In this document: piece by piece, positions 1,162 to 64,000 of the stretch | How the letters are laid out: each line of letters starts with the position of its first letter | How positions within the stretch are numbered: the stretch's first letter is position 1 | NCBI RefSeq assembly: GCF_900112895.1 | Contig: NZ_FONL01000001.1 | Location: 345,234-409,233 of the forward strand | Reading direction: 5' to 3' | From: Succiniclasticum ruminis DSM 9236 | Lineage (GTDB): Bacteria; Bacillota; Negativicutes; Acidaminococcales; Acidaminococcaceae | Length of the DNA stretch: 64,000 nucleotides | Position numbers and translations under genes: made by a program | The notes under the pieces: generated by a model | The model's database searches: none | What the model was told of the DNA's origin: nothing | Seen by the model: only the letters and a program-made list of their open reading frames with translations

Positions 1162-1178
1162 TCAGAAAAGATGGTTAC

Positions 1179-1207: not shown

Positions 1208-1236
1208 CTGCTATCGGGTCCATCTTTAATTTATTT

Positions 1237-1264
1237 TTGAAAACTGATTATTCTGTAGTATAAT
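1237..1264 (+). promoter_or_regulatory. sigma70-type promoter for the M48 protease gene
   Basis: TTGAAA (1237-1242) and TATAAT (1259-1264) are 16 bases apart, 50 bases before the chosen ATG of the protease. Confidence 0.6.
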
Positions 1265-1313
1265 TTAAAATAAGCAAATATTTTAGTCAGATATGTTAGA
1301 AAAAGGAGCCTGT

Positions 1314-14434: not shown

Positions 14435-14443
14435 GCCATCCTC

Positions 14444-16956: not shown

Positions 16957-16980
16957 CTTTAATCCCTGTCTTTCTCTAGA

Positions 16981-17000
16981 TAATAAAAGAATTCTTATTG
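16981..17000. promoter_or_regulatory. Fur-box-like palindrome
   Basis: An AT-rich near-palindrome centred on GAATTC (TAATAAAAGAATTCTTATTG) upstream of the FecE-type ATPase gene. It resembles Fur/DtxR-type iron boxes; no promoter elements are clear. Confidence 0.4.
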
Positions 17001-17058
17001 AGAAGTCGTTCTATTAAATTATTATATACTATATAGCGACAGAAAAAAAGGGATTATT

Positions 17059-17577: not shown

Positions 17578-17590
17578 CTTATCGTCCTCC

Positions 17591-35313: not shown

Positions 35314-35374
35314 ATGCAAAACCTCAACTTTTATACTGAACTTAATGAGACTCCTGTTAAATCCGTCTCTGCTT

Positions 35375-42574: not shown

Positions 42575-42584
42575 TATGGCCCTC

Positions 42585-43424: not shown

Positions 43425-44371
43425 GATTCCTCCTCCTGCCGTACAGAAGGATTCAGGGCATAATAACTCAAATCCACAAGATAGTTAAATACGACAAAAA
43501 TCGTCCCGCTGACAATGACATATCCCTGAATAACCGGATAATCCCGGCTCCAGATAGCGCTTAATACATAGCTTCCCAGGCCGGGTATGGAAAACAGATC
43601 CTCAATAATGACCGATCCGCCCAAAACCGAACCGAAAAAGGTTCCCATCATGGTTATGACCGGCATAACCGAATTAGGGAATACATGCTTCCACATAATA
43701 TGATTTAAAGGAAGGCCTTTTGCCTGTCCGGTAAGGACAAACGGCTTCTGCATCGTTTCTGTAACTGTCGTCTTCTGCAAACGTAAAACAGAAGCCATCG
43801 TTCCGGAAGCCAGGACAAAAGAAGGCATAATCATCTGCACTTCGCTTCCATACCCACTGGAAGGCAGCAACCGCAATTCTTCTGTAAAAACCAGCATAAG
43901 GATGATGGCAAGCCAGAATCCGGGAACCGAGATCAGCAACAAGGAAAATATCCGCAGCACAAGTTCCGGGCCCCGGTTTGTGTTCTTAGCCGACCAGATT
44001 CCCAACGGAATACCAAACACAACAACCCATCCCATGGCACAGACTGCCAGGCTAGCAGTCACAGGCAGACGCCTCATCAACTCGCCAAGCACAGGTTTTC
44101 CTGTTACGTAAGAATTGCCCAAGTCACCCGAGACCGCGTGAAGCAGCCATTTCCCATACTGCGTCCAATATGGCTGATCCAGCCCCATAGCATGCCGCAT
44201 GGCAGTAAGTTCCGCAGTAGTAGGTTCAGTGATTCCGTCCATCGTGAGAACCACAATAGCAGGATCTCCCGGCGCTATAATGCCCAAAATAAAAGACAAA
44301 ATGGTAATTCCTATTAGAAAAGGTATCAGCAGAAACAGTTTGCGCAGTGAAAAAAGAATTGCACTTTTCAT
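43421..44371 (-). CDS. nickel/peptide-type ABC importer permease (NikB/DppB-like)
   Basis: A 316-residue permease with about six helices, a DppB-type start (LRKLFLLIPFLIGITILSF) and the EAA-like loop AKGLPLNHIMWKHVFPNSVMPV. It overlaps the binding-protein gene and the next permease gene by four bases each, so translation of all is coupled. Confidence 0.88.
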   Translation of the reverse strand: MKSAILFSLRKLFLLIPFLIGITILSFILGIIAPGDPAIVVLTMDGITEPTTAELTAMRHAMGLDQPYWTQYGKWLLHAVSGDLGNSYVTGKPVLGELMRRLPVTASLAVCAMGWVVVFGIPLGIWSAKNTNRGPELVLRIFSLLLISVPGFWLAIILMLVFTEELRLLPSSGYGSEVQMIMPSFVLASGTMASVLRLQKTTVTETMQKPFVLTGQAKGLPLNHIMWKHVFPNSVMPVITMMGTFFGSVLGGSVIIEDLFSIPGLGSYVLSAIWSRDYPVIQGYVIVSGTIFVVFNYLVDLSYYALNPSVRQEEES

Positions 44372-45957: not shown

Positions 45958-46034
45958 ACCGCTTTACAGATTATAAATACTCTAAAAACAAAAAATTAAT
46001 CCGTCCACGCGTTCTTAACAATAAAAATGCGATT

Positions 46035-46064
46035 ACACCCCCCGGAATACTCTCTGGGGGGTGT
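46035..46064 (-). terminator. stem-loop behind receptor C
   Basis: ACACCCCCC/GGGGGGTGT perfect 9-bp stem between receptor C and the binding-protein gene. The T-run on the minus strand is some bases away, so termination may be partial and allow read-through to the importer genes. Confidence 0.55.
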
Positions 46065-46084
46065 ATAGTATTACTTATATTTTA

Positions 46085-48274: not shown

Positions 48275-48310
48275 AGTGTCTTCCTCCTATTAATATTATT
48301 GCACACCTTT

Positions 48311-48338
48311 CCTGCAGCCAGTCTTACATGGTCCTGCC
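48311..48338 (-). promoter_or_regulatory. conserved receptor leader element, copy C (start-stop)
   Basis: The same element as before receptors A, B and E, but the second codon is TAA: ATG (48329) directly followed by TAA. The remaining frame still reads DWLQE. A single base change explains it; a start-stop codon pair can itself stall ribosomes. Confidence 0.55.
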
Positions 48339-48371
48339 CTACTCAGCGGAACAACCTTGCTTCTTATCAAA

Positions 48372-48403
48372 CAAAAAAGCCTTTTCGCAAGCTGCAAAAA
48401 GGC
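48372..48403 (-). terminator. intrinsic terminator within the receptor C leader
   Basis: GCCTTTT..AAAAAGGC hairpin (48379-48403) followed on the minus strand by TTTTTT. It lies between the riboswitch and the receptor start, as expected of a transcription-attenuation platform. Confidence 0.75.
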
Positions 48404-48457
48404 ATAGATTACCTCTGTTTTTCACCATTCTGTCGCTCGCAAAATGTATTTAATCTT

Positions 48458-48597
48458 TTTTACGGCATGCCTGCTGGCTCAACATACAATCGTTCTGCGG
48501 AAATCCCTATTCCATTCCACCTGACAGATGTTATACAGCTGCGGGACAGCACAGGCCTTTAACCTGTTGGCATTTTACACATCACTGCACCGTAAAA
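48458..48597 (-). promoter_or_regulatory. cobalamin-type riboswitch
   Basis: On the minus strand the closing helix P1 is TTTTACGG/CCGTAAAA (48597-48590 with 48465-48458). Inside are the core GCTGTCCCGCAGCTGTA, very close to the conserved cobalamin riboswitch core, an ACAGG..CCTGT helix and a B12-box-like GAGCCAGCAGGCATGCC. The usual AAGGGAA is AATGCCAA, so it is a divergent member. B12 binding would favour the terminator downstream and shut off receptor C. Identification rests on pattern matching by eye. Confidence 0.72.
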
Positions 48598-48638
48598 TAA
48601 ATATTTATTTTTAAAATATACGGATTGCCTCATCACCA

Positions 48639-49725: not shown

Positions 49726-50556
49726 ATGGGAATCCGGGAGCAGTATTATACGCCTGTAGAATTTGCCAAATTATTTAATATTGATAAACAAACCCTGATT
49801 TATTATGACAACCAGGGAATTTTCACACCTGCCTTTAAAAAAGAAAACGGGTACCGGTATTACTCCGCAGAGCAGATTGTTTTATTCAGCATACTGCTGT
49901 CTTTACGTAAACTGAACATACAAGGACATCTGCTTGCTGAGTACAATAAAAATCCTTCTAATGACAAATTAACAGAAATGCTGAAAGACAAGATTTTTGA
50001 ATATAATGAAACTGTAGAGTCCCTTTCTCATAAGATCGAATGTCTCCACGCTAAGATTTCCTCTATTCAGAAATCAAACAATCTTCCCATTAATAATATT
50101 ATGCTGATTCCTCATCACCAGATATATTGTCAGCGCAGCGCCGTAATTCATGAAAATACTTCTTACAAAGATGCCCTGTTAGCAAGCACGCCGCTGATCA
50201 GCAGTTTTGCGACAAACCTGTTGACACATCAACTGCAGCTTTCTTTTATGCCCGTTTTTAAAAATCTGTCTGATCTGAGCGAGCCTCATCAATACAGAAT
50301 CGTTCTGCTTACCAATGAAACAAAACTATTTACAAATCCCTTGGAATATCCTCCGGCATTATATCTTACCTTGATCATCGAAGGAGCTTTCCGCCAGAAT
50401 GCTTTGCGGTATATAACTCTGATGGAAGAGTTTATGGACAAAATCGGTCTCACCTATAAACCGTTAGCTTTCATAACACCGTGGCAGACTTTCAACTGTT
50501 TTGAAAACGAAAAACGAAAACTTACCAAGATAGAACTTAACGTCTCGTATGAATAA
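49726..50556 (+). CDS. MerR-family transcription regulator with effector domain
   Basis: A 276-residue regulator. The N-terminal MerR helix-turn-helix (YYTPVEFAKLFNIDKQTLIYYDNQGIF, residues 7-33) is followed by YRYYSAEQIVLFSIL, a dimerisation coiled coil (about 85-115) and a C-terminal domain of about 150 residues resembling the GyrI-like small-molecule binding fold. Many MerR proteins with such a domain sense organic compounds. It most likely controls the divergent methyltransferase gene, perhaps sensing a product of the local pathway. The gene ends in a terminator overlapping its last codons. Confidence 0.88.
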   Translation: MGIREQYYTPVEFAKLFNIDKQTLIYYDNQGIFTPAFKKENGYRYYSAEQIVLFSILLSLRKLNIQGHLLAEYNKNPSNDKLTEMLKDKIFEYNETVESLSHKIECLHAKISSIQKSNNLPINNIMLIPHHQIYCQRSAVIHENTSYKDALLASTPLISSFATNLLTHQLQLSFMPVFKNLSDLSEPHQYRIVLLTNETKLFTNPLEYPPALYLTLIIEGAFRQNALRYITLMEEFMDKIGLTYKPLAFITPWQTFNCFENEKRKLTKIELNVSYE

Positions 50557-50619: not shown

Positions 50620-51537
50620 TTAATATAAAGATACTATATCAAACATTTCCGAAAGCATTTTCCCTGTCCTTGAATCCCAGTCAAACAACAGCACCGCTTC
50701 TTTCCCGCTGTATAAAAACTTTACCTTGCCGTTTTCAATCACGGCGCTCTGGCCCGGCGTCATGTCCATCCACTTCGGCGTTCCGGTCTGGTTGCAGACC
50801 ACAACAGGCAACCCCGTCCGTTGTGAAGCCAGTTCCCAGCTCGGTAATGGAGTTCCCGTTTCCTTTGTAGGAGGCCAGGCAGCGATATCGACAATAATTT
50901 GCGCGCCTTTGTCCGCAAGAACGCGGGGATAATTTAAAAACCAGATATCAGAGCAGACCAGTACTCCTGTTGCCACACCACTGCAGACAACAGGATTCAA
51001 TTTATCATCGTTGGTTGACCATACCTCTGCGCCAAAGCCCACATGGGCAGACATTTTGTTGTGCCGTCCCACCGGTTTGCCGTCGGGGCCGAAAATCAGG
51101 CAGGAATTCCTGTAACAGTCCGCCTGTTTATCATATTCGCCGGCGCCAAGGAATAAGTAGGCGCCATACTTTTTGCACAACTCTGTTAAAGACAGGATGT
51201 CTTCAGAAGGCTGCGGTTTTATTTTTTCCTTTTGCTTCGGATCAATCACATAAAAATAATATCCCTGCAACGCGGTTTCCGGCGTAACAATCCAGTTGGC
51301 GCCGTGCCGGCCGGCAATGTTAATTGCTTTTTCTATTTTTTTAATATTTTCTGCCTGGGGCCCCTGGGCTACATCCAGATGACACAAAGCAATACGTATA
51401 GATTTATTTGAACTGCCTTTTTTGAAATTGTCCGTATTCGAAGAATTTTCTCCGTTTCCTGCGGCTAAACCTGTACAACACAAAGTGAGACAAACAAACA
51501 GAAGCAGGTAACAAAACTTTTTAGCGAAACCTTTCAT
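50620..51537 (-). CDS. exported nitrilase-superfamily (carbon-nitrogen) hydrolase
   Basis: A 305-residue protein with a signal peptide (residues 1-26, LLLFVCLTLCCTGLAAG), so it should act in the periplasm or outside. The catalytic triad is complete: Glu87 in TPETALQG, Lys161 in GRHNK and Cys195 in VLVCSDIW. Such enzymes hydrolyse amides, carbamoyl groups or nitriles, or form amides. It is a paralogue of the cytoplasmic enzyme at 52455-53222 (shared GYxFY.IDP, FLGAGEYD, CNQTG). Exported nitrilases are uncommon. It is last in the operon that contains the NifH-like gene. Confidence 0.88.
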   Translation of the reverse strand: MKGFAKKFCYLLLFVCLTLCCTGLAAGNGENSSNTDNFKKGSSNKSIRIALCHLDVAQGPQAENIKKIEKAINIAGRHGANWIVTPETALQGYYFYVIDPKQKEKIKPQPSEDILSLTELCKKYGAYLFLGAGEYDKQADCYRNSCLIFGPDGKPVGRHNKMSAHVGFGAEVWSTNDDKLNPVVCSGVATGVLVCSDIWFLNYPRVLADKGAQIIVDIAAWPPTKETGTPLPSWELASQRTGLPVVVCNQTGTPKWMDMTPGQSAVIENGKVKFLYSGKEAVLLFDWDSRTGKMLSEMFDIVSLY

Positions 51538-51553
51538 GACGATTCTTCCTTTT

Positions 51554-52375
51554 TCACTTATCTTCTATGCCCATCTCCGCCATAAATGCTTCCAGTTCTT
51601 CAAACGTCATGGTGGTGGGAATTGTCAGTTCCTTATTGTCAAGAACACATTTTGCCAGTTCCCGGTAGACCTGTGCCTGATGGGAGTCCGGCGCGTACTG
51701 GATTACAGTCTGTCTCTGGATTTCCGCTTTCTGTACAATCTGGTTCCGGGGAATAAAAGCGACCAGTTTTGTATTCAGTTTCTTTGCAAAAGCCTCCAGC
51801 AGTTCTTTTTCCTTTGGCGTATTCCGGCTGTTGCCGATCAATCCTCCCAGACGGACTTTACCGCGCTGGGCAAACCGTTTGATGCCCTTGGCAATATTGT
51901 TCGCCGCGTACAGTGACATCATTTCACCGGATGTAATAATATAAATAACATCCGCGTACCCCTCCCGGATTGGGACAGCAAAACCGCCGCAGACCACATC
52001 TCCCAATACATCGTACAAAATCAGTTCGTCATCTTCATTTGCATGTAATGCGTTTAAACGTTCCAGGGCGACGATAATACCTCTGCCGGCACAGCCGACA
52101 CCGGGTTCCGGACCCCCGGCTTCGATACATTTGATATGGTTATAGCCGTAATGAACGATTTCTTCCAGGGTAACGCTGCCGTCATCGGAATTCCGCACTG
52201 CGTCCAGGACAGTTCCCTTGCAGATTTTACCCAGCACCAGGCGGGTAGAATCGTTTTTCGGATCACAACCAATCTGGCATACTTTTACACCCATCTCGCT
52301 TAATGCCGCAGAAACATTGGATGCCGTTGTGGACTTTCCGATACCGCCTTTTCCGTAAAAAGCAATCTTTAGCAT
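51554..52375 (-). CDS. NifH-like nitrogenase reductase homologue
   Basis: A 273-residue P-loop ATPase of the NifH/BchL/CfbC family: deviant Walker [11 protein letters not shown] (residues 7-16), Asp-containing switch [10 protein letters not shown], the two Fe4S4 ligands in GVGCAGRG (Cys95) and [13 protein letters not shown] (Cys129), and the ADP-ribosylation-type Arg98. It supplies ATP-driven low-potential electrons to a component-1 partner. It lies downstream of the K2/D2 pair and is the only NifH-like gene here, so it may serve both pairs (inference). Not a classical nitrogenase by its context. Confidence 0.92.
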
Positions 52376-52454
52376 GATTCCTGTTCCTTTCTATATCATC
52401 ATAAATAATTATCTAAACAAATACATAATTAAATTTAGTGTACCGTATGCTGTT

Positions 52455-53222
52455 TTAAAACGGCATCACTGCAAACCGTTCTGAAATTACACTGTTTTTT
52501 GTTTCATCCCATTCAAACAACAGCAAAGCATCTTCCCCGCTGTATGTCAGTTTCGGCTGCCCGTTTTCAATGTACACGCTCTGCCCGACCGTAAAATCCA
52601 GCCACTCTGTTTTTCCGGTCTGGTTGCATAAAACCATGGGCAGACCTGTTTCATTTGAACATTTTATCCAGGACGGCAACGGATCCCCGCATTCTTTGGA
52701 TATAGGCCAGCCGGCAATATCCACCAGAATCTGCGCGCCCTGTTCCGCCAGCCGTTTGGGGCATTCGACGTACCATGCATCAGAGCAGACCATGATACCT
52801 GTTTTTACGTTTCCCACCTGTACCGGTTCTGCAACGGTACTGTTTGTTACCCAGCCTTCCCCGCCATAACCGTGGGAATGGTTTTTGCGGTGCTTCCCAA
52901 TCAATTCGCCATCCGGACCGAACACAAAGCAGGTGTTGTAATTGCAGTTGTCTTTTACGTCATACTCACCGGCTCCCAGGAATAAATACTGCCGGTTTTT
53001 CCTTACCAGATCCCGCAACGGAGTTAAATATTCCGCAGGCTGCGGATCCAGTTTCTGCTCCGGGTCAATTTTATAAAAATGATAACCCTGTACTGCGGTT
53101 TCCGGCGTAATGACCCAGTCCGCTTTCACTTCACCCGCAATCTGTACTGCGCGTTCCAGAATTTTCAAATTCTCTTCCAAAGGCCCCATACTAAGGGTAA
53201 GATGGCACAACAGGATTTTCAT
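52455..53222 (-). CDS. cytoplasmic nitrilase-superfamily (carbon-nitrogen) hydrolase
   Basis: A 255-residue enzyme without signal peptide. The triad is Glu41 (TPETAVQG), Lys113 (GKHRKNHSHG) and Cys146 (IMVCSDAW). It is a close paralogue of the exported enzyme two genes downstream, so both probably act on the same kind of substrate on opposite sides of the inner membrane. Its ATG overlaps the stop of the K2 gene (ATGA), tying its synthesis to the nitrogenase-like subunits. Confidence 0.88.
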   Translation of the reverse strand: MKILLCHLTLSMGPLEENLKILERAVQIAGEVKADWVITPETAVQGYHFYKIDPEQKLDPQPAEYLTPLRDLVRKNRQYLFLGAGEYDVKDNCNYNTCFVFGPDGELIGKHRKNHSHGYGGEGWVTNSTVAEPVQVGNVKTGIMVCSDAWYVECPKRLAEQGAQILVDIAGWPISKECGDPLPSWIKCSNETGLPMVLCNQTGKTEWLDFTVGQSVYIENGQPKLTYSGEDALLLFEWDETKNSVISERFAVMPF

Positions 53223-54526
53223 AACGAAGGCCGCCTTTCTTCTCTGATAAAATACAAGGTCAGTGTCTGTTCCACTATCTCATGGATCAGACACCCCCAG
53301 CCTTCAATCCCGGCAAATGTCCTGTATTTGCGTCGCAGAAGCCCGTCTGCCTTGTACATGTTGAAATAGATTGTGTGCGCGTAGCCGCCGGTACGGACCC
53401 GGTCGGCAAAAGTCCCGAACAGCAGCCGGATATCAAATGGAAGCCTTGTGTCGCTTTCATCAGGCGCCTTTGGATGAAGCGGTCCACAGTTATCATGATT
53501 TTGCCTTCCATCTTCCCCCATATAGTTTCCCTGTATCTGGTATATTATGTTCTCCACTTCCAGAATTTCATGCTGCAGGGCATCTGCCAGTGCTTTAGCC
53601 TGGGTATACGGTAAGGCTAAAATGGCCTGTTTAAAAGTCAGGTTGGCAATCATCCGCTTCAGGGCGTCAACTTCTTCCCCTACATTTTCCCGCACCACAC
53701 AGGCTTCCTGTTCCAGTTTTTTCAGATCAGGCATCACAGACAGGTTCTCTCCGATTTTTTGCACCCAGTCCATCGTCTGCTTTAACCCGTAGGGAATCGG
53801 CAACACCGCATAATCCTGCCCGGTCTTTTCCTTAAGACGCTTGGCTGTCTGCAGTCCCAGCTCCGGAGCCAGAACAATATTCAGCGCTGCCAACGGTATA
53901 TTTTGCAACTCCTTCATATCCAGTCCCTGCTCACCAGGGCACACTCCCACTTCAAAACCGGCTTCCGCCAGCAGCCGCTTCAGTTCTGCCAGGTCCCCGC
54001 TGCTGTCAGGATAATAACTGCAATAGCCCAGCAAATTTACCCGTTTCGAATGCCTTTCAGCACATTTCTGCAAATCCATCTTGTCTATAATTGCAGTCAT
54101 CGCGGTCTGATACCCCTCTTCAAACAGACCGGTCAGTCCGCCTGTATCCAGAGCAATGACAGGATAGGGCCGCTCCAGCGTACTGACAATCCCACTAACA
54201 TCGTCACCGATAAGGCCTACCGAACAGCTTGTCAGCACAGCCAGCAGACCGGTATCCGGGTTTTCCTGCTTCTGAACATCCAGGATCTCCCTGATTCTGT
54301 CTCCTGTTCCAAACAGCAGGTCAGCCTGTTCCACATGGGAACAGTACAGACGATGCTGCAATGTGCGGTTACAGGACATCAGCTCCCGTTCCACAACAAG
54401 GGAGCACCAGCTGGGGCCATTCAGTACCACCGTAGTATTTTTAAAACTCAGCACGGCTGCCGCAGCCCCGTTCATCTGGCAATAACTATGACAGGGAAGC
54501 CACTGTTCCAGATTCTCATTCTTCAT
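53219..54526 (-). CDS. nitrogenase-like component-1 subunit K2
   Basis: A 435-residue protein of the NifD/NifK superfamily. Candidate cluster cysteines: LPCHSYC (Cys12/Cys16), NGPSWCS (Cys41) and LTSCSVGLIGDDV (Cys101), the last being a strong family signature. Extra cysteines are at 52 and 62. The C-terminal part (FGTFADRVRTGG, GWGCLIHEIVEQ) resembles NifK-like endings only loosely. AGGAGG stands seven bases before the ATG, which overlaps the D2 gene by 11 bases. With D2 it should form the second component-1 heterotetramer. It is not recognisable as BchN/B, CfbD or Mar proteins by eye. Confidence 0.85.
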   Translation of the reverse strand: MKNENLEQWLPCHSYCQMNGAAAAVLSFKNTTVVLNGPSWCSLVVERELMSCNRTLQHRLYCSHVEQADLLFGTGDRIREILDVQKQENPDTGLLAVLTSCSVGLIGDDVSGIVSTLERPYPVIALDTGGLTGLFEEGYQTAMTAIIDKMDLQKCAERHSKRVNLLGYCSYYPDSSGDLAELKRLLAEAGFEVGVCPGEQGLDMKELQNIPLAALNIVLAPELGLQTAKRLKEKTGQDYAVLPIPYGLKQTMDWVQKIGENLSVMPDLKKLEQEACVVRENVGEEVDALKRMIANLTFKQAILALPYTQAKALADALQHEILEVENIIYQIQGNYMGEDGRQNHDNCGPLHPKAPDESDTRLPFDIRLLFGTFADRVRTGGYAHTIYFNMYKADGLLRRKYRTFAGIEGWGCLIHEIVEQTLTLYFIREERRPSL

Positions 54527-55799
54527 GAAACATCCTCCTGTCCGATTCCAAAAATGTTTTCAGCTGCTTCCAGTAATCACAGATTCCCGCAGCGCCGATG
54601 TGCCGTTTTGTGGTTATGAACTGTTTTGCAAAATAAGGTTTTTCGATAATCGTGATAACAAAATCTTCAAGCTTTCTCTGTGTTTTTTCCTGCAAATACT
54701 CTTCTTCCGTGTAAACCGGCTTGCCGTATCCCTGTAGTGCGTTCCGGTATTTTTGGCTTTCCGCGCCTGCCATTTCCGGCAGCAAAATAAACCCGGAAAT
54801 CCGTATTCCCGCTGATTCCAACAGGGAAACAATCCGTTCCGGCATGGCAAAATCATAGGAAAAAACAAAAGCAAGCAGGCAGGTGTTATTCTGAAAGACC
54901 GGCGCGCAATCCGCAGCCGTTTCCTGTATCATTGCTTTTTCCTTTTCAACTGCTTTTTCAGCAAGGAGCGGTTCTCCCAGCAGTTCCCCGGTTTTTCTTA
55001 AATAGGCATACACTTCCTCAGGTGTTTCCGGCAGATTATCCAGGTTATAAGAAATCCCAAGCGTTTCCGCAAAAAACCGGGTGTATGCGTGAATCTCTTT
55101 CCGCTTGTTGGACTGCCCCCTTCCGGCAACCGCAAGAGATACCCGGTTCAGCATGGGAAATTCGGAAATCTTCATGCCGGCGATGGGAAACAAAACATCC
55201 TGAAAACCAAAATAGTGAAACAGCCTGTTAATGCAGGAATTGACAAACGCTTTATTATTAATGGGCTGTTCACCTAACAGGACAACCGTTTTATCTTTTT
55301 CCTTCGTCCGTTTCAAAGGACTGAATTTTTCAATCAGAAGTTTCGTAGTCAGCAGATACGGATCGTTTTCCGTATCATTCATAAAGCCGGAACCGTCCGT
55401 ATAAAGAACAGGAACCTTTGTTTCTTCCTCAATCAGTCTGCAGACCGCTTCTAAATTATCTCCGATGACACCGGCCACACACCCGCCTGCAACCATGATA
55501 TATTTGGGATGCCGGGCTTTGATTACGGCCCGCAGGCATTCTTCCAGTTTCTGTTCCCCACCGAAGATAGCCTCTTTATCCGTCAGCCCCGTAACATAAA
55601 AATTGCCCATGTCATAAGGCAGTTTCCTTCCGGATTTTCGATAGCGCTCTTTCAGATACGGCAAAACGCCGGCAATCAAATGAGAACAGGCCCGGGGTGC
55701 GTGGATCACAACCACCGCCCCCGGGTTAAACGCATTTGCCGTATATATGCCGGCCAGATTGCAGATTACCGGTTTTCGCTTCGCGTGTTTGCCAATCAT
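54516..55799 (-). CDS. nitrogenase-like component-1 subunit D2
   Basis: A 427-residue NifD/NifE-type protein with all three P-cluster-type cysteines: VICNLAGIYTA (Cys13), HAPRACSH (Cys38) and VAGGCVAGVIGDN (Cys107). The diagnostic GLTDKEAIFGGEQKL lies at residues 71-85. No obvious equivalent of the NifD cofactor Cys (HCYRS context) was seen. Length is shorter than NifD. Upstream by 15 bases is a metal-complex-binding lipoprotein gene, so substrate import and reduction appear to be co-expressed. Confidence 0.87.
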   Translation of the reverse strand: MIGKHAKRKPVICNLAGIYTANAFNPGAVVVIHAPRACSHLIAGVLPYLKERYRKSGRKLPYDMGNFYVTGLTDKEAIFGGEQKLEECLRAVIKARHPKYIMVAGGCVAGVIGDNLEAVCRLIEEETKVPVLYTDGSGFMNDTENDPYLLTTKLLIEKFSPLKRTKEKDKTVVLLGEQPINNKAFVNSCINRLFHYFGFQDVLFPIAGMKISEFPMLNRVSLAVAGRGQSNKRKEIHAYTRFFAETLGISYNLDNLPETPEEVYAYLRKTGELLGEPLLAEKAVEKEKAMIQETAADCAPVFQNNTCLLAFVFSYDFAMPERIVSLLESAGIRISGFILLPEMAGAESQKYRNALQGYGKPVYTEEEYLQEKTQRKLEDFVITIIEKPYFAKQFITTKRHIGAAGICDYWKQLKTFLESDRRMFHEE

Positions 55800-55814
55800 A
55801 CTTCCGTTCCCCGC

Positions 55815-56861
55815 CTACTCGTTTTTCTCTTCGGTAACCGTAAGCCTTGCGTTATCCGGGAAGTTAAACTCTTCACCGTAGGCAACGCGGGCAATTTCCT
55901 GCACGCAATACACGATATCCTGGGAACAGTTATAAATGAACTGCTCCCGGGGATAAATCAGCTGCTTATCATTGATGGCCTTCACTGTCCGCAGGGAAGG
56001 ATCTTTTAAATAACTGTCAATAAAGGCCTGAGTATCATAGTTTCCCCTGTCGTTATATACCGGCATCAGCATGATATCCGGATTAATCTTGATCAGCATC
56101 TCTTTGGTCAGCTGCTGACCGGTCTTCAGCCCCGCCGCCGCGATGCCGTTGACCACATTGGCTTCCCGGCAGGCATCGTCATAAGCGCACCCGGCTCCGC
56201 CATAAGCAGTCATCAAAGACAGAAGAACAATATTTTTTCGCTGTTCCGGTTTGATTTTACTTGTTTTCTCCCGGATTTCTGCCAGCTTTTTATCCATCAT
56301 CCCGATGAGCTGCTTTCCCTTTTCCAGTTCCCCTATTGCCGCGGCAACCTGCGAGACAGCTTCTTTTGCGTCCTGAATTGTTTCCGGAGATTTTACTGAT
56401 ACGACCTTTAATCCCAAATCCCGCATACTCTGTATCTTTTCTGCCTGCGTCCAGTCGGAAACGATGACTACATCCGGCTTCATAGACAGTACCTCTTCCG
56501 CGCCGGGATCACCGATTTTTTTAGTTATTCTCTTCGCAATGGGAACAACGTTGGATAATACCGGGTCGTCCATTAAGGTATTGATACCTACCAGATGATT
56601 GCTGGTGACCAACCCCAATACAATCTGGTCCGTGTACATGGCGAAAGTCAGGATTCTTTTCGGTTTTGAGGGAAACGTAACTTTGGTTCCGGTTAAATCG
56701 GTTACCGAATAGGAACCGGTTGTATTTGTTTCCTGCTTGCTTTGCGCTGCATTTGTTTTACTGCTGCTTTGCGATTGCGGGGAAGGACTGCAGCCGGAAA
56801 GCAATGCAGAAATAAGGAAAAATGAAAAAAGAAACAGGGTTAAAATCCTTTTTACACACAT
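55815..56861 (-). CDS. iron-complex/heme/cobalamin-type ABC binding lipoprotein, copy 1
   Basis: A 348-residue periplasmic lipoprotein: signal peptide ending LLSGC (Cys about 24), Ser/Gln-rich linker, then a FecB/BtuF-like fold (SYSVTDLTGTKVTFPSKPKRI, LSMKPDVVIVSDW, INPDIMLMPVY). The family delivers siderophores, heme or corrinoids to FecCD-type permeases. It heads the nitrogenase-like operon (15 bases to D2). It is clearly related to copy 2 upstream, for example through the conserved DDPxxSxxVxxAKRI segment. Confidence 0.88.
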   Translation of the reverse strand: MCVKRILTLFLFSFFLISALLSGCSPSPQSQSSSKTNAAQSKQETNTTGSYSVTDLTGTKVTFPSKPKRILTFAMYTDQIVLGLVTSNHLVGINTLMDDPVLSNVVPIAKRITKKIGDPGAEEVLSMKPDVVIVSDWTQAEKIQSMRDLGLKVVSVKSPETIQDAKEAVSQVAAAIGELEKGKQLIGMMDKKLAEIREKTSKIKPEQRKNIVLLSLMTAYGGAGCAYDDACREANVVNGIAAAGLKTGQQLTKEMLIKINPDIMLMPVYNDRGNYDTQAFIDSYLKDPSLRTVKAINDKQLIYPREQFIYNCSQDIVYCVQEIARVAYGEEFNFPDNARLTVTEEKNE

Positions 56862-57073: not shown

Positions 57074-58072
57074 TTAACTCTTTCCGAAAACTTCAGGATA
57101 GGACATTTTTGCTACTTCTTCCACTGCATCCGCAATGTACTGTGATACGGTAAGCACCAGAGCGCCGGAAATCGTATAGACCTTTCCCTGCTGTACCGCT
57201 TTCATTCCCCGGTACGAAGGATTATTCAGTATTTTTCGTTTCTCTCCATCAGGGTTGTGTTTTCCGTCATAGTCCCAGTCTGGAACAAAAATAATATCCG
57301 GGTTCAGCTCGACAACTTTTTCCTGGGTGATTTCCATGGCGCTGGGATATTTCAGTTCCAACGTTGCGTCACTGACTCCCGCATGTCGGCATACATCGCC
57401 AAAGCTGTTATCCGGTGCATAAAACGCCCCTTCTGACCGAAGCTGTATGACACGCTTGCGCCGGGCTGCCGGAATACCGGCCAGACGCTGCTGCACCTTT
57501 TTAATTCTTGCTTCCATTTTGGAAATGACGGCTTCTCCTTTATCCTTTTCACCTGTCAGAGCCGCAATCTGGCGAATGGATCTTTTCACACCTTTAATAT
57601 CAGACGGCGTTTTGTAAATATAGACCTTCAGACCAAGCTCCCGCGCAGACTGTAACATTTCCGGCGGATGAAAATCCGGTATGATAACCAAATCCGGCTT
57701 GAATGCCAATACATTTTCCATGCTGTTTCCCTGCACCCGGTTAGGGATCCGCTTCGCTTCTTCCACAATACTGGAAACGCCGGGATCATCCACCAGGCGT
57801 GAAAGCGCAGCAATGCGTTGCGGTTCCACCAGCGCCAACAGGATTTCATCTGTGCTGATAGAATACGAAACGATACGTTTTGGCTTTTCAGTAAACTGCA
57901 GCGTAAGTCCGGTGTCGTCTGTTACGGTGTAAGAAGACTGCAGTTTAGAAGTGTTTTTAGAAGATGTATCTGGTTTTTCACTTTTACATCCTGAAAAAAA
58001 CAGCATAAACGAAACCAACAGCAGGAAGATTATGAAAAAAAGTACTTTCTTATTGTTTGCTTTTTTGTTCAT
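57074..58072 (-). CDS. iron-complex/heme/cobalamin-type ABC binding lipoprotein, copy 2
   Basis: A 332-residue lipoprotein with signal peptide ending FFSGC (Cys about 28), then a FecB/BtuF-like domain (SYTVTDDTGLTLQFTEKPKRIVS, AFKPDLVIIPDFHPPE, LNPDIIFVPDWDYD). I start at 58072 where the signal peptide begins; the longer frame upstream includes the terminator of receptor E. It follows receptor E, which likely supplies its ligand. No permease gene for it is visible in the window. Confidence 0.88.
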   Translation of the reverse strand: MNKKANNKKVLFFIIFLLLVSFMLFFSGCKSEKPDTSSKNTSKLQSSYTVTDDTGLTLQFTEKPKRIVSYSISTDEILLALVEPQRIAALSRLVDDPGVSSIVEEAKRIPNRVQGNSMENVLAFKPDLVIIPDFHPPEMLQSARELGLKVYIYKTPSDIKGVKRSIRQIAALTGEKDKGEAVISKMEARIKKVQQRLAGIPAARRKRVIQLRSEGAFYAPDNSFGDVCRHAGVSDATLELKYPSAMEITQEKVVELNPDIIFVPDWDYDGKHNPDGEKRKILNNPSYRGMKAVQQGKVYTISGALVLTVSQYIADAVEEVAKMSYPEVFGKS

Positions 58073-58128
58073 ACCAAGTTCAATATCATCTGTTCCAGAA
58101 TAGGGCGCTCCGCATGGCGTAACGAAAA

Positions 58129-58162
58129 AGAGAGATGAACCGACTGCTCGGTTCATCTCTCT
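58129..58162 (-). terminator. rho-independent terminator of receptor E
   Basis: A perfect 15-bp stem (58129-58143 with 58148-58162), tetraloop CTGC and a T-run on the minus strand. Confidence 0.88.
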
Positions 58163-58172
58163 TGCTAAAACA

Positions 58173-60119
58173 TCAGAAAGAATACTCAATACCGGCAACA
58201 ATAGAGCGACCAGGCATGGTGTACCATCGTCCGGCTGTTCCAACCGGATCATAAGATTCTACAGCAGAACATTCAGTATAGAATTTATCGAACAGATTAT
58301 TTACTTTGATATAAGCTTTTAATTCCTTGATAGGTTTATAATTAACTGCCAAATCAGCTACAACATAATTCTTTGAAGGGAAAAATCCCGGTATAGTACT
58401 TTTTCTATTCAAAGAAGCCCTTGCCATCAAATCAACGTCAAACTTTTTGCTGTTGTATGATAAGCCCAAATTAATTGCATGTTTCGGAACAAAGCCGCTT
58501 ACATTGTGATTAACATTTCCATCTGTTGTCTGTTTAGTATTCGTATAGGTGTATCCTAAAGACATTGAAAAGCCTTTTTCAAAAGCCTTCTTAAACTGTA
58601 TATCGAATCCTTTTGCCTTTTCTTTTTCAATATTACCATATTTCCAGGTTGCATTATCATAACCAACAGCATCATGAGATTTTCGATAGAATAAATGAGT
58701 TGCCAAGGAAGCGGTGTCATCAAACTTGTGATTCCATCCAATCTCCCATGTATAGCCTTTTTCCGGTTTAAGATCTCTGTTCCCAACGCCATAATATGTG
58801 GAAAAATATTGGTAAGCTGTTGGCGCTACGAAGAACCTGTTGTAAGAAAGATACATGTTATTGTTCTTGTCAGCTTCATAACCTACATTAAAGCGCGGAG
58901 TAAAGGCACTCCCGGCAATAGAATGATTATCATAACGCAATCCTGTGTTCAAATCCCATTTTTTAGCAAATTTCCATTCATCTTGCAAGAAAATAGCTTT
59001 CTTTATAATGGTTTCATTAATGTCTGACCGACCCCACCACATATCTTCAGACGCAAAATCAAATTTATCATGCATGTAATTTAATCCTACTACCAGAGTA
59101 TTTGAATCACTTAACTTTGCAGTTAACTGATCATCAATTTCCCAACTCCGGGATTTGTACTGAGTAGTAGCAGGAGAAAGATCTGAATACTTGTTATTGA
59201 ACTTCAAATATTTTAATGCAAACCTGTTAGCAACTTTATCATTAAACTTTTGATTAGAAATTACAGCCCATTCATCAGTATCTGTATTTCCGTCAGTAAT
59301 ACCGCCACCATAAAACTTATCTTCATATTTAAAATCTGATTTGTACTTGTTATAACCTATAGACAAATCAGTTCCTTCACTAAATTCATTTTTCAAGAAA
59401 AAACCAACGGTTTTCGCATCTAAATCTTGAATAATTTTGTCCCCATGTCCGTCTTTAGCGTCACCTAATTTATTAATCTTTGCATTGACACGATAAGTTA
59501 ATTTTTTATTTTCCGTTGTCCCCTGGGTATAAAGCGCATATTCCTGTGCTCCAAAACTACCAGCTTCTGCCCTGATTTTTGTAACAGGTTCTGCGGTTTG
59601 TTTTGTAATAATATTAATAACACCACCTTTTGCATCAGCGCCATACAGAGCAGATGCCGCACCTTTAAGTGTTTCAATCCGTTCGATATTTTCTACTGGA
59701 ACAAACATAGTTGAAGCCAATGGGGTAATATCAGACTGTGAAACTCTCACCCCATCTACCAACACAACAACCTGGTTTGAACCGTTCAATCTAATTGAAC
59801 TACTCATCTCATGACCGGGGCTGCCGTATTCATAAATTACAACACCGGGAACATCTCGCAACGCATCTTTTACTGTAGTGTAATGACGATTCTCAATATC
59901 CTTTGCCGTAATTACATTTAAATTCGCATGTGCATCAAATTCAGTCACGGGTGTTCTCGTCGCCGTCACAACAATCTGATCTAACGTAAATCCCTGCAAC
60001 GCAGATTCTTCGGTCGTAGCATCTTCCGCATGAGCAACAGTTCCCCCAAACGGCAGAATACTGATCGTCCCGCAGATTAATGCTGTCATCAGCATCCCTT
60101 TGGTTACTTTCCTCTTCAT
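58173..60119 (-). CDS. TonB-dependent receptor E (BtuB-like size)
   Basis: A 648-residue receptor with signal peptide (KGMLMTALICGTISILPFGG), plug motifs LDQIVVTATRTPVTEFDA, VKDALRDVPGVVIYEYG, SIRLNGSNQVVVLVDGVRV and GAASALYGADAKGGVINIIT, and a barrel ending VAGIEYSF. Size and plug style resemble BtuB/heme-type receptors rather than the siderophore class of C and D. GAGAGG lies eight bases before the ATG. It has the MKDWL leader and is followed by two FecB/BtuF-type binding proteins, so heme or a corrinoid is a reasonable guess for its ligand. Confidence 0.93.
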   Translation of the reverse strand: MKRKVTKGMLMTALICGTISILPFGGTVAHAEDATTEESALQGFTLDQIVVTATRTPVTEFDAHANLNVITAKDIENRHYTTVKDALRDVPGVVIYEYGSPGHEMSSSIRLNGSNQVVVLVDGVRVSQSDITPLASTMFVPVENIERIETLKGAASALYGADAKGGVINIITKQTAEPVTKIRAEAGSFGAQEYALYTQGTTENKKLTYRVNAKINKLGDAKDGHGDKIIQDLDAKTVGFFLKNEFSEGTDLSIGYNKYKSDFKYEDKFYGGGITDGNTDTDEWAVISNQKFNDKVANRFALKYLKFNNKYSDLSPATTQYKSRSWEIDDQLTAKLSDSNTLVVGLNYMHDKFDFASEDMWWGRSDINETIIKKAIFLQDEWKFAKKWDLNTGLRYDNHSIAGSAFTPRFNVGYEADKNNNMYLSYNRFFVAPTAYQYFSTYYGVGNRDLKPEKGYTWEIGWNHKFDDTASLATHLFYRKSHDAVGYDNATWKYGNIEKEKAKGFDIQFKKAFEKGFSMSLGYTYTNTKQTTDGNVNHNVSGFVPKHAINLGLSYNSKKFDVDLMARASLNRKSTIPGFFPSKNYVVADLAVNYKPIKELKAYIKVNNLFDKFYTECSAVESYDPVGTAGRWYTMPGRSIVAGIEYSF

Positions 60120-60138
60120 CACAAACACCTCTCATTTT

Positions 60139-60525: not shown

Positions 60526-62457
60526 TTATATTCCCAAATTCCTTATAATATGTAAAATATCTCCTTGGGATAACTGTTTCAGTTTGTAATAATTAGCTCC
60601 CATCTCCGCCGCGACCTGACGGGCAACTCCTAATTTAATGAAATCCGTTTCCGTGTCAATGACTATGGAAGTTATTTTTGCTTTATGGATCTGCTTTGCC
60701 AGTTTCATGGCACTTTCCACCGGGTCTTCCCCTTCCTGCACAACGGAATTGGCCCGTCCGTCGGTTACCAGAACCAATACCGGCTCTGTGTCCGGTTCTT
60801 TGCGTATCTGCATGTCCAGGGTAATAAACGCCTGGGCCAGCCCTTCCGCCAGGGGAGTTTTCCCGCCGGTGGGAAGTTCTGCCAGCCGTTTCTGCGCCAG
60901 GTCTACACTGCGGGTAATGGGCAAAAGCTCTTCTGCCGCTTTACGGCGGAATGCAATCATGCCAACTTTATCCCTTTTCTGGTAGGCCTCCTGCAGCATG
61001 GCAAAGATGGCGCCCTTCACTGCTTTCATACGTTCCTGGGCGCCCATGGAACCGCTGGCATCTACTAAAAACAGAAAGGTTGTACCAATCCGCTTTTCCC
61101 GCACACGCTGCCGCAGGTCAGCCTGCTGGATATTGATAGCGCAGTCATTTTTCGGCCGGTGCCGCTGATAAGGCGCCGCGGCCCGGATCGTTGCGTCAAA
61201 AGCCAGATCGTTCACTTTTTCTTTGGGAAGTTCCGCCCGCACATAACGGCCCTGCTTAAGATCGGTTTTCGTCAGGCTGCGCTTGCCGCTGCCCTTTCGT
61301 TTGATCTGGTCTTTTCCCATATCGAGAACCATTTTGGGAAAGGGGAAATGCATATCGATCCCATCAACCTTATCTTCCTGATTGGAATTATTCTGCGGAT
61401 CCTGTTCCGGAGGTTCCTGATTGTCTTCCTCCTGATTCGGTTTGTCTTCGTCATGATTATCCGTATCGTTGTCAGGCGGCGGAGGTGGCATCAGGTTTTC
61501 CTGACTGTCATCCGAATCCATGTCATCGTCTTCCTGATCCGACAGTTCCTCCATATCCTCCGGCTCTTCCTGAGGCGGTTGTTCTTCCGGTTGGGGTTCC
61601 GGGGGCTTGCGCATACGGTGCGGCAGTACATACAGGGCCGCTTCTTCCATATCTTTGGGCAGAATGTAAGTCCTTCCCGCCAGTGCCGCAATGGCTTTCG
61701 CTGTTTCCAGTAAATATAAATCCGCTCTGTGCCCGGCGCAAAACGCCTGGGAACAGTATTGTACCGCCAGTTCCATCATGGCATCGCCAATCTCAACTTC
61801 CGACAGCAGTTCCCGCGCTTTTGCAATCTGCGCCCGCAACTGTTCCGTTTCTTTTTTATATTTTGCGCGGAATGCGGTTGCGTCCTTTGCAAAATCCAGA
61901 AGACGCTGCATGATTTCTTTGCGCTGCTCTTTTTCTTTCAGATTTTCCGTTTCCACGAACAGGCCGAATCGGTCCAACAAATGATTGGGAAGCACTCCTT
62001 CGTGGGGGTCCATAGTGCCTATTACAGTGTATTCTGTTTTATGGACAAAAGAAATACCGTCCCGCTCCACCCGGTTCTCTCCCGCCATGTTGATATCCAG
62101 TACGGCAGTCAGAAGTTCCGGCCGGAGCAGGTTTACTTCATCAATATAGATAATATTTCCGTCAGCCCGGCCCAGCAGACCGGGTTCAAACCGTCTTTCC
62201 CCCTGTGTAACCGCATACTCCAGGTCAATACTGCCAAAGAGCATATCTTCCGTGACGTTCAGCGGCAGGTTCAGCAGTTTCCTGTCCCCGGAAAGTTCCG
62301 CCGCGCCGCGTACAAGCACGGATTTTGCCGTACCGGTCACGCCGCTGATCAAGAGTCCGCCCGCCTTATGATTGACCAACGCGATAAGGATGGCCCGTTT
62401 TGCCTGCTCCTGTCCTGCTACGGCAACAAAGGGATAACACTTAAAATAATCAGACAT
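60526..62457 (-). CDS. BchD/ChlD-like AAA+ and VWA chelatase subunit
   Basis: A 643-residue protein: AAA+ domain with Walker A GVTGTAKSV (39-47) and Walker B-like NIIYIDEVNLL, then an extreme acidic/Pro/Asn-rich linker (about 286-356), then a VWA domain with the metal-binding DASGSMG (about 467-473). This architecture is that of magnesium-chelatase subunit D and CobT-like proteins, which couple ATP hydrolysis to the large BchH/CobN subunit. The only large subunit in this window is the CobN-like gene at 17.6-21.4 kb. Gap to the BchI-like gene is two bases. Unlike many BchD proteins, the Walker A is intact. Confidence 0.9.
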   Translation of the reverse strand: MSDYFKCYPFVAVAGQEQAKRAILIALVNHKAGGLLISGVTGTAKSVLVRGAAELSGDRKLLNLPLNVTEDMLFGSIDLEYAVTQGERRFEPGLLGRADGNIIYIDEVNLLRPELLTAVLDINMAGENRVERDGISFVHKTEYTVIGTMDPHEGVLPNHLLDRFGLFVETENLKEKEQRKEIMQRLLDFAKDATAFRAKYKKETEQLRAQIAKARELLSEVEIGDAMMELAVQYCSQAFCAGHRADLYLLETAKAIAALAGRTYILPKDMEEAALYVLPHRMRKPPEPQPEEQPPQEEPEDMEELSDQEDDDMDSDDSQENLMPPPPPDNDTDNHDEDKPNQEEDNQEPPEQDPQNNSNQEDKVDGIDMHFPFPKMVLDMGKDQIKRKGSGKRSLTKTDLKQGRYVRAELPKEKVNDLAFDATIRAAAPYQRHRPKNDCAINIQQADLRQRVREKRIGTTFLFLVDASGSMGAQERMKAVKGAIFAMLQEAYQKRDKVGMIAFRRKAAEELLPITRSVDLAQKRLAELPTGGKTPLAEGLAQAFITLDMQIRKEPDTEPVLVLVTDGRANSVVQEGEDPVESAMKLAKQIHKAKITSIVIDTETDFIKLGVARQVAAEMGANYYKLKQLSQGDILHIIRNLGI

Positions 62458-62459: not shown

Positions 62460-63485
62460 TTATCCTTCCAGGGTTGCAAGCACTTTTTCCATATCCAGCG
62501 TTCCGTCTTCAAAGGGACGGCGCCGCATGCGGTGCGGCAGTGCCAGCCTTGCCGCGATTTTCAGGTCTTCCGTATTAACTTCCCTGCTGCCGCGGAAAGC
62601 CGCCATGGTCATAGCCGTCTTTATCATTGTAATATCGGAACGATGGCCGTCCACCCCAAGATCGATAGCCAGATCCGCTACCTTATCCAGCATCACGTCA
62701 GGCACGGTAACCTCCGGCAACAACTCTCCTGCCGCCGCGATTTTATCTGCCAGTTCCTCCTGTTCCTTCTGATAAGAAGCAATAAAACCTTCCGGGTCCG
62801 CTTCATAAGCGAGACGGCGTTTGATGACTTCTTTCCGGTTTCCCCGGTCATGCTCACCCGTAACCGTTACAGACAGGGCGAAACGGTCCAGCAGCTGGGG
62901 CCGGATATCCCCTTCTTCCGGATTCATGGTACCTACCAATACAAATCTGGCAGGATGGGAATATGAAACACCCTCCCGTTCCACCGTGTTCACACCCATG
63001 GCCGCCGCGTCCAACAGCACATCCACCACATGATCGTCAAGCAGGTTAATTTCATCTACATATAAAATGTTACGGTTGGCCTGGGCCAGCAGGCCCGGTT
63101 CAAACTTCTTTTCCCCATGTTTTATCGCATATTCCACATCTAAGGTGCCTACCACGCGATCCTCTGTCGCGCTGACCGGAAGTTCCACCACACGCATCTT
63201 CAGTGTTTCCGTTTCTTTCAGTTCACCTGAATGAAATTTTGCAGTACAGTCATCACATAAGAAGTTTTCCTGTAAAGGATCACAATGAAAACGACAGCCT
63301 TTCACCGTTTCCATGGCCGGTAATAATTCTGCCAGGGCACGGACTGCTGTTGATTTGGCTGTGCCTTTTTCACCTTTGATCAAAACACCGCCCAGCGCCG
63401 GATTGATTACGTTTAAAATCAGTGACAGTTTCATATCTTCCTGCCCTACAATGGCAGTAAAAGGATAGACTCCTCTGCGTTTCAT
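62460..63485 (-). CDS. BchI/ChlI-like AAA+ chelatase ATPase subunit
   Basis: A 341-residue AAA+ ATPase with Walker [10 protein letters not shown] (38-46), the four-cysteine CRFHCDP..FLCDDC segment (64-80) typical of ChlI-type proteins, Walker [13 protein letters not shown], and a C-terminal helical lid with HRMRRRPFE. With the BchD-like protein it forms the ATP-driven motor of a metal chelatase. AGGAGG lies six bases before the ATG. Confidence 0.92.
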
Positions 63486-63579: not shown

Positions 63580-64000
63580 TCAGCAGTTGGAAAGCTGTAT
63601 TTTAAGTTTTTCTTCCAGTTCCGTCAATGAACTGTAAATCATTTCATGGGTTATATACTTCGGCTGTATAAAATCCAGTATCCTGCGGGCCGCTTTTGTC
63701 CGGAAGGGCTGGTGCTGGTCAATCTGTACGATGTGTTTATACATATCCGCAAAGGTTGTACGCCGGTCATATTCATGCACAAGACTCTTCTGGTAAGCGC
63801 CTGATAAGGAACAGCTTAAGTGGATTCCTTTAATCAGCCCCGCCAGTTCACCCAGGTTCTCAACAGTCCGGCAGACATAATCCGCCGCTTCTTCTTCGTC
63901 CTTCAGGTCGGGATTGGTATTCATCAGGTGCCCGGTATCCAGCATGATGCCCACATTTTTACGCTGAATACGCTCAAAAAAGAATTTCACGTTTTCCGGT
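63580..64000 (-). CDS. sugar-phosphate-isomerase-like TIM-barrel protein, 5' part beyond window
   Basis: The last 140 or so residues of a TIM-barrel of the xylose isomerase/AP endonuclease 2 superfamily, with the metal-binding strand VGIMLDTGHLMNTNPD and IKGIHLSCSLSG (His ligands). The frame is open to the window edge; a GTG at 63990 is not a likely start. The family includes sugar isomerases, endonuclease IV and CbiR, a cobamide-remodelling enzyme; in this tetrapyrrole-related setting CbiR-like activity is worth considering but unproven. Ends 94 bases before the BchI-like gene. Confidence 0.7.
   Translation of the reverse strand, partial: PENVKFFFERIQRKNVGIMLDTGHLMNTNPDLKDEEEAADYVCRTVENLGELAGLIKGIHLSCSLSGAYQKSLVHEYDRRTTFADMYKHIVQIDQHQPFRTKAARRILDFIQPKYITHEMIYSSLTELEEKLKIQLSNC

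Follow-up and report, generated by a model that had tools for sequence, protein, structure and literature searches.

A separate clade of nitrogenase-like proteins in Succiniclasticum ruminis and its relatives, and its possible link to corrinoids

Nitrogenase-like enzymes that reduce tetrapyrroles are represented by DPOR, COR and CfbCD, as stated in the accessible part of one report (PMC7242693). The accessible part of another describes the Mar structure, which has three P-cluster cysteines in each of the subunits MarD and MarK and an [Fe8S9C] active site, and places the substrate of DPOR directly in the active site (PMC12552129). This report concerns six genes of Succiniclasticum ruminis DSM 9236, which encode a nitrogenase-like component-1 pair (D2 and K2), a NifH-like Fe protein, two nitrilase-superfamily hydrolases (NitC and NitX) and a FecB/BtuF-type binding lipoprotein (FecB2). 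They lie in a stretch of 64,000 nucleotides, called the window below, which spans positions 345234-409233 of a contig of 430,887 bases (NZ_FONL01000001.1); the genome measures 2.54 Mb and is 98% complete.

Group IV of the nitrogenase-like proteins contains clades whose subunits have three cysteines each and none of the ligands of the iron-molybdenum cofactor (FeMoco). In the accessible part of the survey that describes them, some nitrogenase-like genes lie near ATP-binding cassette (ABC) transporters, and cobalamin is remarked on only for the single-subunit NflD (Dos Santos et al. 2012, PMC3464626). None of the papers listed by searches of the open-access literature, which excludes most subscription papers, describes a link between nitrogenase-like proteins and corrinoids of the kind reported here, and neither do the accessible parts of PMC10418091, PMC7160235, PMC9147875, PMC4153887, PMC11206085, PMC10553843 and PMC12583661. 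CbiR, as far as the accessible text goes, hydrolyses cobamides (PMC7733943). CbiZ, to judge from the name of its Pfam family, acts on cobinamide. CobN-BchID-type chelatases insert metal into tetrapyrroles. To our knowledge, neither a nitrogenase-like reductase nor a chelatase or a nitrilase takes part in cobamide remodelling by CbiZ and CbiR.

The six-gene core and the placement of D2 and K2

On the minus strand, the genes follow each other in the order FecB2 (55815..56861; PF01497, 71.1 bits), D2 (54516..55799; PF00148, 121.5 bits), K2 (53219..54526; PF00148, 162.9 bits), NitC (52455..53222; PF00795, 80.3 bits), NifH (51554..52375; PF00142, 368 bits) and NitX (50620..51537; PF00795, 84.0 bits). 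Each of the six scores above the cut-off of a Pfam family: Peripla_BP_2 for FecB2, Oxidored_nitro for D2 and K2, CN_hydrolase for NitC and NitX, and Fer4_NifH for NifH. D2, an alpha-type subunit without the FeMoco/L-cluster cysteine, overlaps the beta-type subunit K2 by 11 bases, K2 overlaps NitC by 4 bases, and the other gaps within the six genes measure 15-79 bases. Strand, coordinates and overlaps had been given in the same way in a preliminary description of the locus, and ORFs (open reading frames), Pfam matches and gap measurement bear them out. The P-loop of NifH reads GKGGIGKS and its two cluster cysteines are present, in keeping with the Fe4S4 ligands previously read from its sequence; the protein scores slightly under the cut-off of the nifH equivalog (392 vs. 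394.35). The three P-cluster-type cysteines per component-1 subunit that had been reported were likewise recovered in the aligned P-cluster-ligand columns of NifD and NifK, as C13, C38 and C107 of D2 and C16, C41 and C101 of K2.

A phylogenetic tree of 41 sequences, which includes 11 D and 11 K rows from the window to Sporomusa ovata and does not include CfbD, places the D proteins in one clade and the K proteins in another, each with a support of 100/100. Both clades stand apart from the NifDKEN/Vnf, Mar-like and Treponema, BchN and BchB sequences; the branches of Bch and of D1 (from a second set in the window, described below) are long, six rows are odd in composition and the deep order is unsure. 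All six P-cluster-type cysteines are kept in 11/11 D and 11/11 K rows. The FeMoco/L-cluster cysteine, which is present in all seven references (NifD, NifE, VnfD, VnfE, two Treponema sequences and a Mar-like D), occurs in none of the 11 D rows; as expected, this active-site cysteine is also absent in BchN. At the FeMoco ligand columns, D2 has an arginine for Cys275 and a gap at His442. The ligand pattern is that of the yellow-coloured group IV clades of Dos Santos et al., for which the accessible text describes no link to corrinoid uptake, CobN or a riboswitch (PMC3464626). Within the clades, D2 and K2 belong to a side branch together with RUG097 (locus L033) and a Phascolarctobacterium (L035), to which L036, L054 and L057 were added by similarity and L038 probably belongs. 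K2 is 31% and D2 24% identical to the respective P. faecium protein.

The placement of D2 and K2 in no described system, which the preliminary description had proposed, stands for every characterised clade sampled, CfbD not being among them. Nitrogenase membership was rejected because the NCBIfam cut-offs of nifD and nifK are unmet (D2 39.5 vs. 653.55; K2 27.3 vs. 427.3), D2 lacks the FeMoco ligands and the clade is separate. The closest resemblance by sequence is to MarHDK of Rhodospirillum rubrum, whose subunits are the best matches in the PDB (9d9u, 9fmg; K2 1e-24, D2 6e-11) and share the six P-cluster cysteines. The AlphaFold model of D2 (mean predicted local distance difference test score, pLDDT, 84.7) also has its best fold match in MarD (Z 25.2, root-mean-square deviation (rmsd) 4.2, 350 residues). 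However, D2 lacks the cysteine that binds the [Fe8S9C] cluster, Mar-like Chlorohelix rows, used as a proxy (D 231 bits to 9d9u_A), group with Treponema outside the D and K clades, and the D2K2 neighbourhood is of a corrinoid type, and Mar membership was rejected on the missing cysteine and the separate clades. DPOR shares the lack of active-site metal-cluster ligands, and the K2 model (mean pLDDT 82.2) has its best fold match in BchB (Z 34.6, rmsd 3.0, 403 residues), followed by MarK (Z 33.0); a bchB of Novosphingobium also adjoins a CobN/BchH-type gene. Among 50 listed fold matches of D2, no chain is named BchN, which is not evidence against a relationship. Membership of DPOR was nevertheless rejected, since both proteins score far under the BchB/BchN cut-offs (K2 85.7 vs. 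490.35; D2 24.9 vs. 419.95), K2 has a cysteine at the aspartate column of BchB, and neither groups with Bch sequences. CfbCD is likewise a nitrogenase-like reductase acting on a tetrapyrrole, but was rejected on scores under the cut-offs of CfbC (NifH 374.9 vs. 402) and CfbD (D2 38.8 and K2 26.5 vs. 268.4), and it has a single D subunit instead of a D-K pair.

Gene neighbourhoods, co-occurrence and riboswitches

That the six genes form one minus-strand unit, as had been claimed, is correct for their direction; the unit is, however, larger, as the six genes are the tail of a co-directional cluster of 22.1 kb that runs beyond the end of the window. Its minus-strand order is radical SAM, FecB, FecC, CobN, CbiZ, CbiR-like TIM barrel, BchI, BchD, TonB receptor, FecB3, FecB2, D2, K2, NitC, NifH and NitX. 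Two wider intergenic gaps of 212 and 397 bases leave space for internal promoters, so that the cluster may give rise to more than one transcript. The radical SAM gene, the first of the cluster, lies at 7691-8749 (minus strand) of the flank past the window end (L121), which also encodes CbiZ (604-1707, minus strand; PF01955, 200.3 vs. cut-off 27). A divergent MerR gene is located upstream of this first gene, with TonB/ExbB-type genes farther out. The frame of the CbiR-like barrel (AP_endonuc_2) stays open across the window boundary, with its C-terminal part at 63580..64000 (minus strand), and the two parts match the barrel family at 120 and 111 bits; the barrels of relatives score 44.5 and 31.7 bits on PF01261 (cut-off 31.1), one in L130 scores 29.4, and the superfamily is broad. 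The BchI/CobS-type (62460..63485; TIGR02442 507 bits, TIGR02030 426 bits) and BchD/CobT-type (60526..62457; TIGR02442 643 bits, TIGR02031 476 bits) chelatase ATPase subunits, both on the minus strand, score under the cut-offs of these models. They are followed on the same strand by the TonB-dependent receptor (58173..60128), whose best model is the BtuB-like TonB-B12 (TIGR01779, 228.9 vs. 599.7 bits), and by FecB3 (57074..58252), a second FecB/BtuF-type binding protein, which is matched by the binding proteins of related loci and whose true start is probably internal to the ORF. On the plus strand, a MerR-type regulator (49726..50556; PF00376) lies tail to tail with the cluster end.

The CobN of the cluster matches another CobN of the window (17591-21382) at 1216 bits. 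The latter exceeds the cut-off of TIGR02257 (932 vs. 822) and is far nearer to the CobN 7c6o (3e-232) than to HmuS (4e-112). It is part of a set at 11935-21382 in which it adjoins a 172-amino acid protein (17059-17577) and CbiO/CbiQ-type transporter genes. No Pfam family was matched by this 172-amino acid protein, by a 284-amino acid protein of S. ovata (see below) or by several other neighbours.

A scan with a K profile, using one genome per species, yielded 68 loci, many of which end at contig ends. Of these, 65 are in records named Negativicutes, and the other three are from Pelotomaculum propionicicum and from bins labelled Lachnospiraceae and Acholeplasmataceae, the last (L120) being a weak match. 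Neighbour families were defined as clusters of ORFs, named from representatives, and their members were compared back. Next to D or K partners (67 loci), the most frequent neighbours are NifH (44), FecB (43), a TonB receptor (36), FecC (32), CobN (32) and BchI/D (28), followed by CbiZ-like proteins (26), a FecE-type ATPase (22), CbiR-like barrels and radical SAM proteins (19 each), MerR (15), TonB protein (11), nitrilase (10), CbiK (7) and BtuR/CobO (5). The MerR genes of many relatives are divergent to the NifH, D and K genes (H-D-K), and H-D-K has BtuR as a neighbour in Pelosinus, Sporomusa acidovorans and Pelotomaculum. The order binding protein-D-K-nitrilase-NifH, which the preliminary description had expected to be conserved, is not; the order with two nitrilases was seen only in this genus, in the window and in RUG097 (L033/L053), where D2-K2-nitrilase-X-nitrilase has a FecB as X at the place of NifH. 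In the side branch, the contig extends far enough in six of seven loci, and in each of these D-K is directly preceded by a TonB receptor and by FecB, present in one or two copies; neither nitrilase nor NifH adjoins D-K in L035, L036, L054 and probably L038, and L057 ends directly after K.

In a sample of 250 genomes of the class, a strong clade match (a listed place with at least 234 bits) was obtained in 76; the counts for CobN, K places and CbiZ distances given here are lower bounds owing to contig ends, to the use of listed places and to scoring that was limited to two CobN places and seven candidates per genome. CobN is encoded in at least 98 of the 250 genomes and in at least 67 of the 76 with the clade (Fisher p 1e-26), and CbiZ in 102 of the 250 and 52 of the 76 (p 5e-9). 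Of 96 K places, at least 47 have CobN and at least 43 have CbiZ at a distance of no more than 20 kb, the latter counted from 71 listed places.

An Rfam scan of 47 K-clade loci, part of the fetched loci, revealed a cobalamin riboswitch in 16, and in 11 of the 47 it heads H-D-K or D-K. The riboswitch is separated from these genes only by short ORFs in seven loci, L046 (P. faecium), L067 (Anaerospora), L082, L083, L089 (S. ovata), L108 and L111, by a 217-amino acid ORF in L078 (S. acidovorans) and by CbiK in L066, L118 (Pelosinus) and L096 (Schwartzia). Its distance to the first of H or D is at most 1.5 kb in 10 cases (0.16 expected) and at most 2 kb in 11 (0.21 expected), the expectation being calculated from the riboswitch density of eight such genomes (151 over 33.4 Mb); it is raised by the fact that all eight have a riboswitch in the loci already seen, and maybe lowered because six were scored on 118 of up to 225 candidates. 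In Schwartzia, a ZMP/ZTP riboswitch (L096, 11344-11424) lies directly after K and before a gene for 427 amino acids. The riboswitch-headed H-D-K of S. ovata (L089, 7522-14975) continues with the 284-amino acid protein, a membrane ferredoxin, HGD-D and a BadF-type ATPase; this run comprises parts of two ATP-driven low-potential reductases, and its HGD-D/BadF pair fits a need for electrons of very low potential. The only cobalamin riboswitch of the window (48447-48609, minus strand; RF00174, 48.9 bits, gathering 31.5) precedes another TonB receptor (46085-48274), not D2-K2. Together with this receptor and an oligopeptide/nickel-type ABC transporter (40873-48274), it forms a set (40873-48609) that perhaps serves the uptake of cobalt or corrinoids.

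NitC and NitX are 52% identical, and all NCBIfam models listed for them score under cut-off. The Glu-Lys-Cys triad is kept in both, as in all 11 module nitrilases from nine genomes; an N-terminal hydrophobic signal, judged by eye, predicts export of NitX, and no signal was seen in NitC. The 11 nitrilase genes are spread over 10 of the 68 loci, compared with 1.7 genes expected from 33 in 23.0 Mb of the nine genomes, a generous expectation as these genomes were picked for having one. Since pairs, and their place next to D-K, were seen only in the window and RUG097 (L053), the hydrolysis on both sides of the membrane that had been proposed would be a local feature.

This genome encodes three component-1 pairs: besides D2K2, the window contains D1K1, and the third pair is located on contig C18. 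A genome-wide search recovered a single full NifH-type match, besides one of 55.7 bits; as a single full NifH-type protein thus faces three component-1 pairs, it probably serves all of them. D1, K1 and a NifB-like radical SAM gene (34432-38127) make up a second nitrogenase-like set, in which D1 has neither the active-site cysteine nor two of the three P-cluster cysteines; in L044 (genome G035), such a D1-K1-NifB-like set adjoins another CobN and FecB. The third pair (C18, 60834-63390; L047, L124) is of the same clade as D2K2 and has no cluster genes adjacent, and similar loci are present in relatives (L049-L051). A more distant nitrogenase-like pair, D'K', with its own NifH is found in P. faecium (L130, 373-10977), headed by a cobalamin riboswitch and arranged as TonB receptor-CbiR-like-FecB-NifH-FecB-FecC-FecE-D'-K'; L131, L132 and L134 contain sets that resemble it in part and have no riboswitch match.

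Corrinoid reduction and its rivals

The preliminary description had proposed that an imported metal complex or tetrapyrrole-like compound is reduced by a nitrogenase-like enzyme. This idea is partly supported: uptake of a metal tetrapyrrole together with such a reductase stands, and with moderate confidence the interpretation shifts to corrinoids, which are suggested by the riboswitches, CbiZ, CbiR-like, CobN, BtuR and CbiK genes of relatives. A corrinoid appears the likeliest substrate because CbiR-like, CbiZ and CobN-BchID proteins are joined to a relative of the nitrogenase-like tetrapyrrole reductases and a cobalamin riboswitch is present in several genera; the co-occurrence with CobN and CbiZ, the cysteine pattern of D and K, the additional reductase parts in S. 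ovata and the best fold of K2, that of the tetrapyrrole reductase subunit BchB, were also counted in its favour. D2K2-NifH may therefore use ATP to reduce corrinoids as part of the uptake and remodelling of cobamides, a reading of substrate and reaction that we consider about evenly poised between right and wrong. The TonB receptor and the FecB/FecC-type transporter would import corrinoids, and the putative CbiR-like phosphodiesterase and CbiZ, counterparts of which are known from cobamide remodelling, would trim the lower ligand and nucleotide loop. Using ATP, NifH would pass electrons through the P-cluster-type iron-sulfur cluster, which six cysteines hold where D and K meet, into a pocket that has no ligands for an active-site metal cluster; since such ligands are missing, the substrate itself presumably sits there, like protochlorophyllide in DPOR. 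We take this substrate to be the imported corrinoid, with its cobalt centre, reduced to Co(I), as a slightly likelier site of reduction than the ring, and the reduction might provide Co(I) for adenosylation, ready the molecule for metal exchange or reduce the ring. CobN, BchI and BchD may handle the metal by removal, re-insertion or exchange, and the nitrilases may hydrolyse amide groups of the corrinoid or of its fragments; for the nitrilases, a role in disposing of cyanide from imported cyanocobalamin is also conceivable.

Several observations weigh against corrinoid reduction by D2K2. No cobalamin riboswitch was detected by the Rfam scan before the window's own D2-K2 or in the flank L121, and 36 of the 47 scanned loci, the window among them, lack one before H-D-K. 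The cluster's TonB receptor is under the BtuB cut-off (TIGR01779), the best fold of D2 is MarD, and MarK is only 1.6 Z units under BchB for K2. The divergent side branch may have changed its substrate; its probable member L038 has a serine for the first P-cluster cysteine of K and a D gene broken by a stop. The loci of the third pair (L047, L049-L051) show no cluster genes next to D-K, and among the listed matches, 9 of the 76 clade genomes are without CobN and 31 of the 98 CobN genomes without a strong clade match. CbiC is encoded in 213 of the 250 genomes, including that of S. ruminis (contig C31); as these bacteria can probably produce corrins of their own, an explanation of the cluster by corrinoid auxotrophy is weakened. 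Flavodoxin-type donors reduce cob(II)alamin in other systems, and the need for ATP is thus not obvious.

A more specific version of the corrinoid reading, in which the reduction readies an intact corrin for removal or exchange of cobalt by CobN-BchI-BchD, the nitrilases and CbiZ trim amides and the family works in this way throughout the class, seems unlikely; we know of no enzyme that takes cobalt out of an intact corrin or exchanges it there. It is distinctly unlikely that the cluster dismantles foreign corrinoids for their cobalt, with trimming by CbiR, CbiZ and nitrilases, reduction by NifH-D2K2 and cobalt removal by CobN-BchID. The near-universal CbiC would agree with a need for the metal alone, nitrilase-family hydrolases are part of the cluster, and the reductase has CobN with BchI/D as neighbours even though CbiK/CbiX insert cobalt at an early stage of the anaerobic pathway; however, the destruction of an intact corrin under B12 limitation seems wasteful, and CobN-BchID complexes are known to insert cobalt but not to remove it. 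The reductase could also act on some other tetrapyrrole or metal complex that the cell imports and harvests for its metal (heme, F430, a chlorin, or a cobalt or iron chelate), the corrinoid genes being co-regulated as B12 needs cobalt. This is rather unlikely, although uptake genes are numerous in the window, siderophore and heme receptor models also match the TonB receptor, always under cut-off, and the CobN-family protein HmuS, which is encoded with TonB-type uptake in gut anaerobes, takes iron from heme in Bacteroides according to the accessible part of one study (PMC12583661). CbiZ and CbiR act on cobamides, the riboswitches are of the cobalamin type, and the window CobN, to which the cluster copy is similar, is much more cobaltochelatase-like than HmuS; heme de-chelation of the HmuS type was downgraded after this comparison. 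HmuS, moreover, is not known to need BchI and BchD, both of which are in the cluster.

A step in de novo cobalamin synthesis, for instance in place of CbiJ and thus biosynthetic like CfbCD or DPOR, would explain the cobalamin riboswitches, the CbiK genes that adjoin D-K in several genera and the BchB-like fold of K2, and CbiC lies on the contig of K in P. faecium (about 48 kb away) and in three other members of the family (G024, G025 and G026; about 40-50 kb). This role is very unlikely in view of the uptake and salvage genes of the cluster, the different contig of CbiC in S. ruminis and the much wider distribution of CbiC than of the clade (213 vs. 76 genomes). Highly improbable is a function of D2K2 as a Mar-like reductase of sulfur compounds or as a NifEN-like scaffold for the D1K1-NifB-like genes 12 kb away. 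The Mar subunits are indeed the best PDB sequence matches, but D2 lacks the L-cluster cysteine of NifE and Mar-like D and falls in a separate clade, the families that the neighbours have in common include none that was recognised as belonging to sulfur metabolism, and among L033-L052 a NifB-like gene was seen only in L044.

Implications for B12 handling and the nitrogenase fold

The substrates of few nitrogenase-like reductases are known, and the large clade described here is given a concrete and testable substrate class. If D2K2 and its relatives are indeed corrinoid reductases, Phascolarctobacterium and relatives of Succiniclasticum from gut and rumen, as well as Selenomonas and Sporomusa, process B12-type molecules by a nitrogenase-type machine. 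This would matter for how vitamin B12 and related analogues are turned over in the gut, as well as for the spread of the nitrogenase fold between tetrapyrroles and N2. Should the removal or exchange of cobalt prove to be the purpose, the handling of B12 would join chlorophyll and F430 as the third tetrapyrrole task performed with the nitrogenase fold.

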